Part shown: positions 7,066 through 37,080 of the stretch, in pieces
Position numbering within the stretch: the stretch's first letter is position 1
Layout: every line of letters starts with the position of its first letter
IMG/VR virus record: IMGVR_UViG_3300037166_000041
Span: 1 to 43,861 of that record
Length of the DNA: 43,861 nucleotides
Source: a virus
Strand: one strand, 5' to 3'
The notes under the pieces: generated by a model
What the model was told of the DNA's origin: nothing
Database searches by the model: none
Seen by the model: the letters and a program-made list of their open reading frames with translations, nothing else
Program-made: the position numbers and the translations under genes

Positions 7066-7698
7066 ATGACAGAGCAAGAACGCATTGACAAAGTAGCTAA
7101 TGCTATGGCCTACTTGCATGATACGGCTGTAGCTTACCTGCAATCGCCGTACTCTGATCTTTGCCTCACTGCCATCCAGCAATATGATCAGGGTTACGGC
7201 GGTAGTAAGCATCACCACAATTACATTGGAGGGCTGGCGGTTCATGTAGCAGACGTAGTACGAAGGTGCTTAGATCTTAGCGGTACGGACAGAGCGCCTC
7301 AGCTCTACCCAACTGCTAACGTCGATCTTACTGTTCTTCTTACCTCGGCTTATTGGCATGATTATGGCGAGCTGGCGGAATACGCGTGGAAAGAAACACC
7401 GGGGCCATTCAGTGAACTATTTGGATCCAAATCAGATGGTTACGTCGCTACTACGCCCTACGCCAAGTTGTGCGGCCACGTGGTTGGCTCTGCATATGAG
7501 TTTCTTGAGGTTGTGCGAGGCGCAGACCTTGCCGAAGCAGACCACCAAGCCACTGTCGATGCCATCGTCCACTGCATGCTCGCCCACCACGGCCGCAAGG
7601 AGTGGGGTAGCCCAGTGGAACCGGCCACCAACGAGGCGTGGATTCTTCACGCAGCTGATATGATGTCGTCTAGGGAAGGGGCCCTTAACGGATTATAA
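7066..7698 (+). CDS. HD-domain phosphohydrolase
   Basis: 210 residues. The metal-binding HD fold is visible: a His-rich stretch KHHHNYIGGLAVH near 48-60, the HD pair in WHDYGEL at 97-103, GHVVGSAYEF near 138-147, AHHGRKEWGSPVEP near 173-186 and a final HAADMMS. This arrangement resembles the YhaM/3'-5' exonuclease-associated HD branch rather than dNTPases. The substrate could be a nucleotide, cyclic nucleotide or phosphoester. The last codons and TAA stop lie inside a TTATAATAG promoter element. Confidence 0.82.
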   Translation: MTEQERIDKVANAMAYLHDTAVAYLQSPYSDLCLTAIQQYDQGYGGSKHHHNYIGGLAVHVADVVRRCLDLSGTDRAPQLYPTANVDLTVLLTSAYWHDYGELAEYAWKETPGPFSELFGSKSDGYVATTPYAKLCGHVVGSAYEFLEVVRGADLAEADHQATVDAIVHCMLAHHGRKEWGSPVEPATNEAWILHAADMMSSREGALNGL

Positions 7699-7754
7699 TA
7701 GAAGTAGAGGTCAGAGTACAGTTGAGCATTTAGAAATATCACAGGAGGCACCAC
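7693..7754 (+). promoter_or_regulatory. Promoter of recurrent TTATAATAGA type with conserved leader
   Basis: TTATAATAGA (TATAAT at 7694-7699) follows a CCCTTAAC box. The downstream ~55 bases match the leader at 14968-15022 closely (GTAGAGG, CAGTTGA, CTAGAAnTAT-like, CAGGAG). No -35 hexamer is seen. The element overlaps the stop codon of the HD gene. Confidence 0.65.
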
Positions 7755-8171
7755 ATGGCAAAAGGTAAGCAGCAGCACGCGCACGGGGCGGTCACGCCTA
7801 AAGAATGGGAAGAGGTTCGCGAATTGTTGAACGGCGATCTATTTCTCGGCCCCTTCGATCACTCTCGTAGCCGCAAGGCACTTGACGCTGTATTCGCCAA
7901 GCGCCCCGCGTCGTATACGCTGGAGCAGATAATGAGCGCGGGTGAAACTGTAGCAGCGCATATTTCTGACAGCAGGGACCGTGCGGACTTCCGAATGCAT
8001 CTCAATGATGTGTATGCCCGTCTCCAGCCCACGCCCAAGCCGAAGACGGTGGAGGAGCGTCTAGCAGAGATTGCAAGCAAGTATGCGATTACGCTGGATG
8101 AGAAGGACCGAGCGAAATACTTTACTGAGATCATAACCGCGCTTAAGGAAAACGAGGCCAACAATGGATGA
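7755..8171 (+). CDS. Hypothetical protein
   Basis: 138 residues, predominantly charged and probably helical, with no recognised domain. The start has an AGGAGGCACC ribosome binding site, the same string found before the lysozyme and zinc-ribbon genes on the other strand. First gene of the transcript from the 7694 promoter. Confidence 0.7.
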   Translation: MAKGKQQHAHGAVTPKEWEEVRELLNGDLFLGPFDHSRSRKALDAVFAKRPASYTLEQIMSAGETVAAHISDSRDRADFRMHLNDVYARLQPTPKPKTVEERLAEIASKYAITLDEKDRAKYFTEIITALKENEANNG

Positions 8172-8658
8172 ATTGAAATATGCGAAAAGTTTGTACGGTT
8201 TGCAAACGCGTATAAATACTGCTAAGGAAAACCATGTTCTTACTATTGAAATGGATATAGTTCCATTGCAAGGATTCATCGAGCAGATTGACGGCTTGAT
8301 GGGAGAGGTAGCCGCGCAAAAAGACGAGATAACCGAACTAAAGCGTTCGCGTGACTCGTTCTCTGGTATGTGGAAGCGAGCTGCCCTTGAGAACACGACG
8401 CTTGAGGATGAGAACGCGGCGCTCACGGCCCAGGTCGAGCGGCTGACAGCGCCGATGAGCAAAGAAGAGCACGAGCGTTTCCACCATGACTATGTTGCCT
8501 TCCAGATTTTTGATGTGAATGGTTTCGTTGCCGCCCGTGCAGCCGCGCCTGCAACCGGCGCAGAGCAAGTCCACGCGCCTAAGACAATCGTGCCGGAGCC
8601 AGACCAGAGGCGGATTGAGACTGAGCGGTTTCCGCAGAAAGGACAGGACAATGGCTGA
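8164..8658 (+). CDS. Coiled-coil hypothetical protein
   Basis: 164 residues. A long heptad-like helix covers about 40-100 (IEQIDGLMGEVAAQKDEI and LENTTLEDENAALTAQVERL), followed by a Pro/Ala-rich tail. Overlaps the previous gene by 8 bases. Probably oligomeric; role unknown. Confidence 0.65.
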   Translation: MDELKYAKSLYGLQTRINTAKENHVLTIEMDIVPLQGFIEQIDGLMGEVAAQKDEITELKRSRDSFSGMWKRAALENTTLEDENAALTAQVERLTAPMSKEEHERFHHDYVAFQIFDVNGFVAARAAAPATGAEQVHAPKTIVPEPDQRRIETERFPQKGQDNG

Positions 8659-9055
8659 GTTGAAGACAACATCAGAGACACGCGCCGCAATGAGGAAGTA
8701 TATCACTGAGATGGTCGAAGCAGATAGCGGCTGGTCAGATCAGAACCGCGATCAGGGCTTTCTTCTTGACGACGTGGAGAATCTTAAGCGCGATCTGGCC
8801 GAGGCGCAAAAGAATACGTGGCAGGATATCACGCCGGAGAACCTGCCGAAAGTGGGCGGATGCTATCTTGTTACTCTGCTCCATCCAGTCTTTCCCAAGC
8901 CTATGGTGCTGATGGCGCACTTCGTCATTTTTGAAGATGGAGGTAAATGGTCCCTAGACGGAAACTGGCTGGACAAAAGGGCGATTGGAATCATTGCGTG
9001 GATGAATTTTCCTACGCCATTCAACCCGCCAGCGCAGGAAGGGAGCAATCCATGA
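8651..9055 (+). CDS. DUF551-like protein, copy 1
   Basis: 134 residues. After an N-terminal helix comes TWQDITPENLPKVGGCYLVT (about 56-75), and near the end IIAWMNFPTPFNPP: the W-x-D-I/V, P-x-x-G, and terminal aromatic-Pro pattern of DUF551. Function of the family is unknown. ATG 8651 is chosen by the 8-base overlap with the upstream gene. Its central 55 bases are identical to the next gene. Confidence 0.72.
   Translation: MAELKTTSETRAAMRKYITEMVEADSGWSDQNRDQGFLLDDVENLKRDLAEAQKNTWQDITPENLPKVGGCYLVTLLHPVFPKPMVLMAHFVIFEDGGKWSLDGNWLDKRAIGIIAWMNFPTPFNPPAQEGSNP
8795..8849 (+). repeat. 55-base identical block, copy 1 (second copy 9253-9307)
   Basis: Bases 8795-8849 and 9253-9307 are identical, including all third codon positions, while the surrounding coding sequence of the two DUF551-like genes has diverged. 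This points to recent duplication or gene conversion of the core. Confidence 0.9.
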
Positions 9056-15778: not shown

Positions 15779-16018
15779 GGCAGGCTTGATCTGCCATAGT
15801 CGCTATCTTCAATTACAAAACAAGCGTAATTGACGGGGCGATTAAATTGAGCGCCAAGATACTTTCGCCACGCTCTAGCGGCTATGGCAGAGCATGAGAT
15901 GCCTAGCTCAGAACAGGTGGCAGTGCGATCGGCCGCCGTAGGCACACAGCCTGCCTACCCTCCCGTGCGCCTCTAACATGGCCGGCCGTCCTTTCACGCG
16001 CTGCCACCTGTTCTGCGC
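15779..16018 (+). ncRNA. Putative structured RNA element A (two domains)
   Basis: No gene lies between 15773 and 16056. Hand pairing on the plus strand gives domain 1: helix 15790-15803/15878-15891 (14 pairs), helix 15804-15809/15856-15861 (6 pairs), then hairpins 15810-15816/15826-15832 and 15837-15840/15852-15855, forming a three-way junction. Domain 2: 15909-15923/16001-16015 (15 perfect pairs, extendable), inner 15930-15935/15983-15988, hairpin 15938-15944/15952-15958. It lies between cistrons of the 14962 transcript. It could be an intercistronic regulator, a processed small RNA or an RNase-resistant element. No known RNA family is recognised. Confidence 0.55.
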
Positions 16019-16056
16019 TATTGAGGCACAGAGAACCTGAAAAGGAGAACTAAGTC

Positions 16057-18753: not shown

Positions 18754-19673
18754 CCCAGTTACTATGGAAGCCGCTCCTCTCTGGAACTCTGCCCATCGAC
18801 CCAGTCACCGGCGACTTCGACTATTCACTGATTCCGTTCTCAGTTTATGCTTCACCTAAGGAGGACGGTTTTCGGGCCATGGTGCAACGCAGCGTGCTTG
18901 TCTCTCGCAATGGTTTGCCGGTGCGTAACAAGGAACTTCAGGCACGCTACGGCCGCAAAGAGTATGAAGGTCTTGATGGCGAACTCACCGATGGCCCGCC
19001 GAATGGTGAGGATGTATTCCACCGCACATCGAAGATCGTGACTAAGGCTGATGCAGATGCTTCAGATGTTAGGTTCAACGTCATTGATTTCGTAAAGCAG
19101 GGCGGGTCATTGTTAGATTTACATGCTCGCATTGATGATTTGAAGTCTGGGGATCATATATGGCATGTTGTAACTATTATTCCCCAGATGCCCATTGAGA
19201 CTGTAAATCAGTTGAAGAAGTTTGAAGTTAAGTGCCTCACTCAAGGTTTTGAAGGAGTTATGCTCCGCCGTGCTGACCAGGGCGTCTATCCGCAGAAACC
19301 TGGTAAGGAGAACCGCTCCACTCTGCGGGAGTTTTACCTAGTGCGCATGAAGCGGTTTGAGCAGGCGGAGGCAATCATCACGGCAGTGCATCCGCTTAAG
19401 CATAATGCCAATGAGGAGCGTACTGGTGCTGGTAAGCGCAGCAGCAAGAAGGCCGGTATAGTGGTAGACGCTTCGCGGGTGGGATCTGCTACCTTGCGCG
19501 ACATCAAGACCGGCAAAGAGTTTGACACGACCATTGGAGCAGAGCGGCTGCGGACCTGGAAAGGTTGGTCGTCGGCGATCGGCAAGAAGGTCAGGTACAA
19601 ATACCAATTAGTGGGGACCGTCGATAAACCGCGAATCAATACCTGCAGCTTCGTAGAACTTGGAGTGAAGTGA
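18750..19673 (+). CDS. ATP-dependent DNA ligase
   Basis: 307 residues, the compact phage size. Motif I KEDGFR at 37-42 (Lys37 is the adenylated residue), SRNGLPVRN near 52-60, motif III LDGE at 75-78, motif IV EGVML at 168-172 and motif V around MKRFEQAEAI near 200-209. A C-terminal OB-like segment with KKVRYKYQLVG follows. It would seal nicks during replication and repair with the polymerase and nucleases of this window. The first base of the next gene overlaps its stop. Confidence 0.93.
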   Translation: MTQLLWKPLLSGTLPIDPVTGDFDYSLIPFSVYASPKEDGFRAMVQRSVLVSRNGLPVRNKELQARYGRKEYEGLDGELTDGPPNGEDVFHRTSKIVTKADADASDVRFNVIDFVKQGGSLLDLHARIDDLKSGDHIWHVVTIIPQMPIETVNQLKKFEVKCLTQGFEGVMLRRADQGVYPQKPGKENRSTLREFYLVRMKRFEQAEAIITAVHPLKHNANEERTGAGKRSSKKAGIVVDASRVGSATLRDIKTGKEFDTTIGAERLRTWKGWSSAIGKKVRYKYQLVGTVDKPRINTCSFVELGVK

Positions 19674-19837
19674 TGTCTCAAGTAAAGAAATGTTGCAAGT
19701 GCCGTAAGTCACTAGAGAACGATGTGGTATGTAGAAAATGTGGGCACGCTGTGTGCCTCTGCCCTGCCTGCCGTGATTGTGCCCATGCGGGGTGCCCCAG
19801 CGCGACGTGCACTAAGAAGGGAGTTAAGAAGAAGTAA
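19673..19837 (+). CDS. 54-residue zinc-ribbon-like protein
   Basis: Eleven cysteines in 54 residues: KCCKCRK, VCRKCGHAVCLCPACRDC, then GC and TC, ending with a Lys-rich tail. The CxxC pairs indicate one or two zinc ribbons. ATG 19673 overlaps the ligase stop. It could be a nucleic-acid or RNA polymerase-binding factor; unknown. Confidence 0.65.
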   Translation: MSQVKKCCKCRKSLENDVVCRKCGHAVCLCPACRDCAHAGCPSATCTKKGVKKK

Positions 19838-19855: not shown

Positions 19856-19862
19856 TTATAAT
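19856..19862 (+). promoter_or_regulatory. Promoter of recurrent TTATAATAGA type, drives structured RNA B
   Basis: GCGCTTTTAAC, then GAGTTATAATAGATACAG. With TATAAT at 19857-19862, transcription should begin near 19869-19870, exactly at the 5' side of the first helix of the structured RNA. Confidence 0.65.
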
Positions 19863-19869
19863 AGATACA

Positions 19870-20177
19870 GTGCGGCGTTTTCGAGGATGCTCGGATGGGA
19901 AGTGCGGTGAGTCAGATAGTAACTCCAGCTACTGACGCTGGCTGCAGTTTGGGGAACTTAGGGCTTAGGAGAGCCCATACCAAACTGATACCCTGAGCAC
20001 CTACGAAAGCGCCGCGTGCCCTTCCATCACGGCTCCGCTCCAACGGCCATAGCAATGCTAGTCCCGGAGCATAACAGGAAAGTGTTAAGACCGAGTTGTT
20101 GGACTGCCTGCATTATAACGCTTGTCAGATACCATGCAAGTCAGCTTTCCATATAGGGAGCCGTGATGGAAGTGCAT
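19870..20177 (+). ncRNA. Putative structured RNA element B (promoter-linked, two domains)
   Basis: The 376 bases between 19838 and 20213 hold no gene. Domain 1 closes with 19872-19883/20004-20015 (12 pairs, one G-U), continues 19884-19886/20000-20002 and 19888-19894/19993-19999, and encloses hairpins 19911-19915/19932-19936 and 19945-19952/19980-19987 with a terminal 19961-19965/19972-19976. Domain 2 closes with a perfect 16-pair helix 20021-20036/20157-20172 and contains 20037-20041/20066-20070 and 20077-20082/20145-20150. The promoter places the 5' end at the first helix. It is either a free small RNA or a long 5' leader controlling the gene at 20214. No known family is recognised. Confidence 0.62.
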
Positions 20178-20213
20178 TCGCGCTTCACTAAGAACTGAGA
20201 AAAGGAGTAGCAA

Positions 20214-20660
20214 ATGATTCTGCAATGGAAAAGCAACGGGCCGCTGGAGAGCGTTTCCAAGTGGCAAGGTATCGGGCTGACGGCAAAGTGGCTGCCGGCG
20301 ATACGCAACTGGCGGTTAGCTTTGACTGGCGCGGCACTGGTGCCGGATGGCGCTTTCACGAAGGGGCAGTGGTCCACACTGCGCGGCGCGCAGGAGGCAG
20401 CGGATGCGGCGCTGGAACGTATCATCGAGCGGCGGGCACAGTCGCACCAGCCGCCAGTGGCGACGCAGCGCGTTGCTGTATCTGGGCGGTCTGGTGGCGC
20501 TTATATCGGCAGTGCAACAGAGATCGGCCACCTTGGGTCTGTAAAGTCCAATATCAAAGAAGGTCCGTCAGTGAGGTTCTCTGGGGTGTTCTCTGGCTTC
20601 TCAAGGTTCAGAGAGGAACTTACTTCTGACGCCAGCGACGGTACATCCTATGCCAGTTAA
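20214..20660 (+). CDS. Hypothetical phage protein
   Basis: 148 residues, AAAGGAG 8 bases upstream. The first 70 residues (WKSNGPLESVSKW, then TLRGAQEAADAALERI) look like the short beta-strand proteins encoded near phage ssDNA-binding genes. The tail from about 80 is Gly/Ser-rich and less convincing. It follows structured RNA B, which would form its leader. A shorter overlapping frame (20225-20629) has poor composition and no ribosome binding site. Confidence 0.6.
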   Translation: MILQWKSNGPLESVSKWQGIGLTAKWLPAIRNWRLALTGAALVPDGAFTKGQWSTLRGAQEAADAALERIIERRAQSHQPPVATQRVAVSGRSGGAYIGSATEIGHLGSVKSNIKEGPSVRFSGVFSGFSRFREELTSDASDGTSYAS

Positions 20661-21195: not shown

Positions 21196-21432
21196 ATGGA
21201 CGAACGTTCTGAAACCTGCGGTGCTGAAGAAGACTGCAGCCAAATGAAAGCTAAACCACTTACAACCTTGGAGAAGCTGCAGCGGCAGCGTATTAGAGTC
21301 GCCAGAGATGTTGCACAGCTTCAAGTGTTGTTAGCACGTCTGGATGATGTCATTGAGACGGCGCAGACCACTAAACCTGACTTGCTTACAGCCTACGAGA
21401 CTGTGAATGACGTCCTCAACAATTGTTACTAA
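21196..21432 (+). CDS. Small helical hypothetical protein
   Basis: 78 residues from ATG 21196. The ATG at 21187 touches its own AAGGAG, whereas 21196 lies 9 bases downstream. The same 19-base string AAGGAGATGCAAGGAATGG precedes the next gene (21434-21452), which supports the second ATG in both. Helical: LEKLQRQRIRVARDVAQLQV. Confidence 0.6.
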   Translation: MDERSETCGAEEDCSQMKAKPLTTLEKLQRQRIRVARDVAQLQVLLARLDDVIETAQTTKPDLLTAYETVNDVLNNCY

Positions 21433-30343: not shown

Positions 30344-30585
30344 AACGTACAAATGCTCTGAAGCTGTCGCCTAACGGCATAACCCTCCAAGCCGCGCCTT
30401 TGCGCGCTCCAGACGCGCCTACAGACTTTGACCTAGAGGTTAAGCGGCTCAGGCTCACCGGCTCCGCTATGGAGGTTCTGGGAGCGTCTGTGGGCCTCCG
30501 TGAGTGGGCCATGCGGTGGTGCAGAAGCCGCTATATTCCTGAAGATCTGCTAAAAATGTGGGGAATGGAGCAGAATGATTTATAA
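30340..30585 (+). CDS. Small hypothetical protein
   Basis: 81 residues, overlaps the helicase stop by 4 bases. Its last codon and stop (TTA TAA) lie inside the next promoter's TTATAATAG, as with the HD gene at 7698. No family recognised. Confidence 0.6.
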   Translation: MKRTNALKLSPNGITLQAAPLRAPDAPTDFDLEVKRLRLTGSAMEVLGASVGLREWAMRWCRSRYIPEDLLKMWGMEQNDL

Positions 30586-33933: not shown

Positions 33934-34008
33934 ACGGCTAGCTATGGCGTCTAGGCAAACGCGCCGCAGGCTATCTAGGCTCTACCTGCCCGAATGGCTG
34001 TACGGCAA

Positions 34009-34050
34009 AGGCCCTGCGGATACACAGTTTTCTGTGTATCCGCAGGGCCT
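34009..34050. terminator. Perfect 19-pair hairpin, probable terminator or attenuator
   Basis: 34009-34027 pairs perfectly with 34032-34050 around a TTTT loop. The plus side is followed by AAAAATAG rather than a T-run, and the minus side by TTTGCC, so it is not a textbook terminator. It sits between the gene ending at 33933 and a new promoter, where a boundary is expected. The rest of 33934-34131 holds no gene. Confidence 0.5.
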
Positions 34051-34072
34051 AAAAATAGTTCGAAAATAAATG

Positions 34073-34100
34073 TTTAGAAAGCTAGAAACTCTAGTATAAT
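34073..34100 (+). promoter_or_regulatory. Promoter type 2, upstream of zinc-finger gene
   Basis: TTTAGA, 16-base spacer, TATAAT (34095-34100). Upstream AAAATAGTTCGAAAATAAAT is nearly repeated before the 36001 promoter (AAAATAGTCTGAAAATAAAT at 35958-35977), an UP-element-like AT tract. Confidence 0.55.
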
Positions 34101-36993: not shown

Positions 36994-37007
36994 GTCCATT
37001 TGGCCTG

Positions 37008-37041
37008 TGGAAAGCCCACCGGACACCCGGTGGGCTTTCCA
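37008..37041. terminator. Terminator after H1-like gene
   Basis: GGAAAGCCCACCGG (37009-37022), ACAC loop, CCGGTGGGCTTTCC (37027-37040); 14 perfect pairs plus a flanking T-A. The A/T runs are inside the stem (AAAGCCC...GGGCTTT), the same style as the terminator at 42717. Confidence 0.75.
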
Positions 37042-37063
37042 GTGTCTGGACATGGCCAAGCTT

Positions 37064-37080
37064 CGCCACGGAGACCGTGG
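37064..37080. repeat. 17-base repeat R1, copy 1 (copy 2 at 39447-39463)
   Basis: CGCCACGGAGACCGTGG occurs identically at 37064-37080 and 39447-39463, each just after a terminator, and CACCATT follows both. It contains the dyad CCACGG AGA CCGTGG. Likely a protein-binding site or an RNA hairpin at a unit boundary. Confidence 0.7.

Follow-up and report, generated by a model that had tools for sequence, protein, structure and literature searches.

A previously undescribed leader RNA of two domains (D1 and D2) lies ahead of the DNA-replication genes of uncharacterised phages. The explanation that we prefer, and to which we would give roughly an even chance, is that this two-module structured leader is most likely processed into one or two stable RNAs. 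The DNA in which it was found, termed here the window, is the 43,861 nt of IMG/VR record IMGVR_UViG_3300037166_000041, and window coordinates are used throughout (Table 1).

The locus and its probable promoter

The intergenic gap between 19838 and 20213 (376 bases) had been predicted to contain no gene, and it is indeed overlapped by short mechanical ORFs only. The replication operon that follows the leader consists of g20214, g20650, the gene at 21407 and the DNA polymerase. The first of these has homologues in the phages L002, L018, L111 and L109, and gave no Pfam or PHROG match. The original prediction also placed a promoter such that transcription would start at the helix of D1; this agrees with the TATAAT found here, for which the probable +1 falls at the foot of D1. 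This promoter is supported by L002, in which TATAATA recurs with the same spacing. The element has no good -35, a generic sigma-70 scan does not report the site, and no TATAAT is found directly before D1 in L018, the -10 being conserved in two of the three carriers. At the other end of the leader, the distance from D2 to the ribosome-binding site is no more than ~25 nt in each of the three phages, and it is shorter in L002 and L018 than in the window.

Table 1. Features of the leader locus in the window and in the two related phages that carry the RNA
Feature	Position	Strand	Remarks
54-aa Cys-rich (zinc-ribbon-like) ORF	19673..19837	+	conserved upstream neighbour; from sequence and homologues
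TATAAT, -10 element	19857..19862	+	probable +1 at 19869; same element and spacing in L002
Domain D1	19869..20016	+	long closing stem and two hairpins; from fold and covariation with L002
D1 junction motif AUGGGAA	19895..19901	+	identical in all three phages
D1 junction motif CUGAUACC	19985..19992	+	identical in all three phages
Domain D2	20017..20176	+	from fold, covariation (three sequences) and model R1
Ribosome-binding site AAAAGGAGTA	20200..20209	+	between D2 and the start codon; from sequence
g20214	20214..20660	+	first gene behind the leader; fast evolving
L002, domain D1	8279-8424		
L002, tRNA-Leu	8435-8521		
L002, extra hairpin	8530-8637		
L002, domain D2	8640-8798		
L018, domain D1	7567-7760		
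L018, tRNA-Met	7755-7829		
L018, 54-aa ORF	7846-8010		
L018, domain D2	8014-8185		

Fold and covariation

The 312 nt from 19869 to 20180 fold at -138 kcal/mol compared with -100.4 +/- 5.2 for dinucleotide-shuffled sequences (z = -7.19), and none of 100 shuffles was as good, this comparison having been proposed at the outset as a check on the RNA. Taken singly, D1 and D2 have z of about -6 to -7 in each phage. The 12 contiguous pairs originally seen in D1 (19872-19883/20004-20015) are present in the fold and continue as further segments, with the arms of the closing stem at ~19872-19898 and 19991-20015 enclosing hairpins at 19904-19945 and 19946-19986. The 16 perfect pairs described for D2 (20021-20036/20157-20172) are likewise found, inside a 20-nt inverted repeat at 95%, and together with flanking pairs form a closing stem that leads to a three-way junction with P2 (~20037-20070) and P3 (~20077-20150). 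The conserved parts of D2 are an invariant UCACGGCU/AGCCGUGA segment and ACCAU. A stem of the RNase III type, that is ~20 bp and perfect or near-perfect, is provided in the window by the D2 arms (20 nt at 95%), and the long-stem arms of the other copies are 21-27 nt. Complementarity between the D1 loops (CUCC/GGAG in the window, GCUUG/CAAGC in L002) may allow them to kiss and P2 may pair with P3 in D2, although both contacts are suggestive only.

It had been proposed that homologues be sought in which the helices carry compensatory changes, and double-sided changes were found in both domains, with two relatives compared for D2 and one for D1. For the three sequences of D2, 95% of cells are paired and 15 of 35 pairs have changed on both sides, with none of 500 shuffles as high and at most 4 double changes in slid pairings, and for the two sequences of D1 (window and L002) 100% are paired and 13 of 43 pairs have changed on both sides, a number reached neither by slid pairings nor by 500 shuffles; the structures were derived from the same alignments and are thereby favoured over their slid versions, yet the counts of double changes are still far outside both controls. 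Between the window and L002 the paired sites of the RNA are 61-67% identical, compared with 37% for the third codon positions of the ligase, and thus the RNA is under selection.

Phages with and without the RNA

An alignment of the polymerase provided 18 viral contigs for comparison. The RNA is found at the same locus, with the same flanking genes, in two other IMG/VR phages, L002 (ligase 67% identical, from a ligase search of viral contigs) and L018 (48% identical, from the ligase alignment), both of which have two long-stem domains between the ligase region and the g20214 homologue. In these two of the three carriers the domains are separated by a tRNA gene; the linker of the window is without one, its sole tRNA being at 2137-2213. 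In L018 the 3' arm of D1 ends in the first bases of the tRNA-Met, which form the 5' acceptor strand of that tRNA, whilst in L002 the interval from the tRNA-Leu to D2 holds an extra 26-bp hairpin that is absent in the window and was not seen in L018. The D1 of L018 was not recognised by the two-sequence D1 model R2 (5.8 bits), and it is assigned provisionally from its position, its closing stem and the two exact junction motifs.

Other relatives do not have the RNA. The homologue of the Cys-rich ORF that precedes the RNA in L002 is followed directly by the g20214 homologue in L111 (ligase 57.5%), which therefore represents an empty site, and in L106, L108 and L109 the operon is closely preceded by a TATAAT and has a short leader in which the RNA is absent. 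Leaders in relatives of this kind are ~50-90 nt. As they keep the TATAAT at the same place, the promoter is probably that of the replication operon itself. No terminator-like site was found on the + strand between D2 and g20214, which argues for an operon leader and not a separately terminated small RNA, and this is favoured further by the position of D2, which in each of the three phages stops just short of the ribosome-binding site of the gene that follows. Two options had been offered by the original prediction, a free small RNA or an exceptionally long 5' leader; the leader is the better fit, and a free RNA with its own 3' end fits less well. Any free RNA would have to come from processing of the operon leader, which is likely.

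Carriage of the RNA is patchy: whether the tree is built from the polymerase, the 169-aa protein or the 21407 protein, the three carriers do not group as a clade. These trees require two or three changes, and because several of their branches are weakly supported gain, loss and exchange are not separable. At many other promoters in these phages the stem of a small hairpin starts at, or at most 2 bases from, the predicted +1, and the loop of such a hairpin often contains the ribosome-binding site; D1 can therefore be regarded as a larger-scale version of a common leader plan. Leaders with TATAAT and a hairpin recur in the window (TATAAT starting at 30581 and 34095) and also in the L002 contig, L106, L108, L111 and L122.

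Further long-stem hairpins occur elsewhere in these genomes. A second pair in the window (15787-15894 and 15904-16020) fills part of a 284-base gap upstream of gene 16057 (z = -7.0), and a hairpin at the matching place in L002 (4725-4842) has a CCTTTCACGCGC segment in common with it. Stems of ~20-33 bp are found in related phages at L108 1481-1601, L122 2271-2391, L106 178-311 and L018 2-94, with those of L108 and L122 being homologous and having stems with compensatory changes. In L092 (854-943), L095 (1324-1413) and L096 (903-992) a primase/helicase gene is immediately preceded by a hairpin, the interior of which is almost invariant whilst its 14-bp closing stem covaries. Two more gaps in the window fold strongly, 33934-34098 and 36994-37076, with perfect short-loop inverted repeats of 19 bp (34009-34050) and 15 bp (37008-37041) respectively.

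Searches for further members of the family were made in several ways. No match to the window locus was found by blastn in 50,697 phage records, and with the L002 and L018 loci the alignments, among the matches listed, were over the tRNA part only. A 16-mer scan of viral contigs gave chance matches only, the cultured relatives AXL_3, PW916 and MW202621 had no D2 match, and R1 found nothing in 399 genomes of one phylum in a run made without a positive control. A gapped D2 pattern returned the two known relatives and four other stretches, all of which R1 rejects and each of which has an open reading frame. In L092 TGGGAA and TGATACC occur 97 nt apart, which is considered chance as they are inside a coding region and there is no stem.

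Possible functions

In the processing that we favour, a phage promoter would start transcription at the foot of D1 and the transcript would run through D1, a tRNA in some phages, D2 and then the replication operon. From their length, the ~20-bp closing stems of D1 and D2 would be expected to be cut by RNase III, with RNase P and 3' processing releasing the tRNA from the leader. That the leader is most likely cut follows from its stems of RNase III-cut length, from tRNAs that need release and from the absence of a terminator. The products would be one or two structured and presumably stable RNAs of ~150 nt each, and the operon mRNA would then begin at a new 5' end a short way before its ribosome-binding site. 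The released RNAs may meet a binding partner, probably a host or phage protein, at the conserved junctions, namely AUGGGAA/CUGAUACC in D1 and UCACGGCU/AGCCGUGA with ACCAU in D2. It is conceivable, if unlikely, that this is a new family of bipartite phage RNAs, one of several long-stem RNA modules gained and lost by these phages, and that the two domains assemble as a single particle, enclosing the tRNA in those phages that have one, which during replication would bind a host factor of RNA processing or translation.

It is possible, though doubtful, that the leader acts purely in cis and has no action in trans: D1 and D2 would shield the replication-operon mRNA at its 5' end and leave the ribosome-binding site of g20214 accessible. 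This would account for D1 beginning at the predicted +1, for the short distance from D2 to the ribosome-binding site in all three phages and for the small 5'-terminal hairpins at other promoters, yet for such a purpose simple hairpins would suffice and relatives cope with short leaders, the conserved junctions and multi-helix cores exceed the needs of stability, and a tRNA gene between the domains implies cutting. Alternatively the leader might regulate the operon by sensing a ligand or a protein, as a riboswitch or as an operator to which a phage replication protein binds. This would suit three-way junctions that have conserved loops and stand immediately before the operon, and a D2 that adjoins the ribosome-binding site. 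Such a regulator is quite unlikely, as no terminator was found, the fold has nothing paired to the ribosome-binding site, an arrangement of two modules separated by a tRNA or an extra ORF would be odd, and the RNA is patchy among phages that share the same operon.

That same patchy gain and loss would be in keeping with a decoy directed at the host or its defences, the released domains mimicking a host RNA and titrating a defence or RNA-processing protein, as would the association with tRNA genes, the strong dsRNA stems and the conserved single-stranded motifs. However, the RNA resembles no Rfam family and no target was found, and we consider a decoy distinctly improbable. It could also be argued that the domains are inverted repeats acting at the level of DNA, where they would mark an origin or a site of packaging or recombination and the fold of the RNA would be incidental, for the arms are perfect, 12 of the 20 pairs in the D2 closing stem never vary and the minus strand is also stable (z = -5.4). 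This is hardly credible given that covariation extends to the inner hairpins and uses G-U pairs, that in all three phages the + strand of D1 exceeds the minus strand in stability by 9-12 kcal/mol (D2 being about equal), and that the domains are positioned behind a promoter and around tRNA genes. The covariance models R1 and R2 score 157-174 bits on the + strand and 21-39 bits on the minus strand.

Comparison with known RNAs

The original prediction recognised no known RNA family and proposed that cmscan be run, and with Rfam 15 no match was found, either at gathering score on the whole window, known riboswitch and leader families among them, or at E<=5 on the locus. The L002 and L018 loci gave no family match either, GOLLD and ROOL included. 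Phage mRNAs, such as those of T7, have intergenic hairpins that are processed by RNase III and leaders that stabilise the 5' end. The present RNA is like these in having long stems between a promoter and an operon, and is unlike them in its multi-helix cores with invariant junction nucleotides and, for two of the three phages, in having a tRNA that separates the two stems.

The T4 locus (L105) encodes RNA C and RNA D, two small tandem RNAs of 139 and 119 nt beside a tRNA gene. Also known as the species 1 and 2 stable RNAs, their roles are unknown (PMC3014915) and their expression is late (PMC9697503). This layout is like that of the present RNA, but a 20-bp closing stem is absent from the folds of both RNA C and RNA D, the stability of RNA D by itself is unremarkable (z = -1.1), and R1 and R2 have no match in the T4 locus. 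GOLLD and ROOL are also phage-encoded, elaborate, of unknown function and often near tRNA genes, and the linker of GOLLD can carry tRNAs (PMC12286853). Of the present copies, those of L002 and L018 have a tRNA between their domains and that of the window has none. Unlike GOLLD, many of which are >800 nt, the RNA here is 312 nt, and it differs from both GOLLD and ROOL in having two simple domains closed by long stems and no Rfam match. In layout it resembles T4 RNA C/D and GOLLD, being related to neither by model search. Even after long study, no function is known for the tRNA-linked structured RNAs of phages (GOLLD, ROOL, T4 RNA C/D). The new family is small and compact; with its covarying helices, its likely promoter, a relative that offers the empty site, and natural variants that have or lack the tRNA, it is a convenient set in which to ask what such RNAs do.
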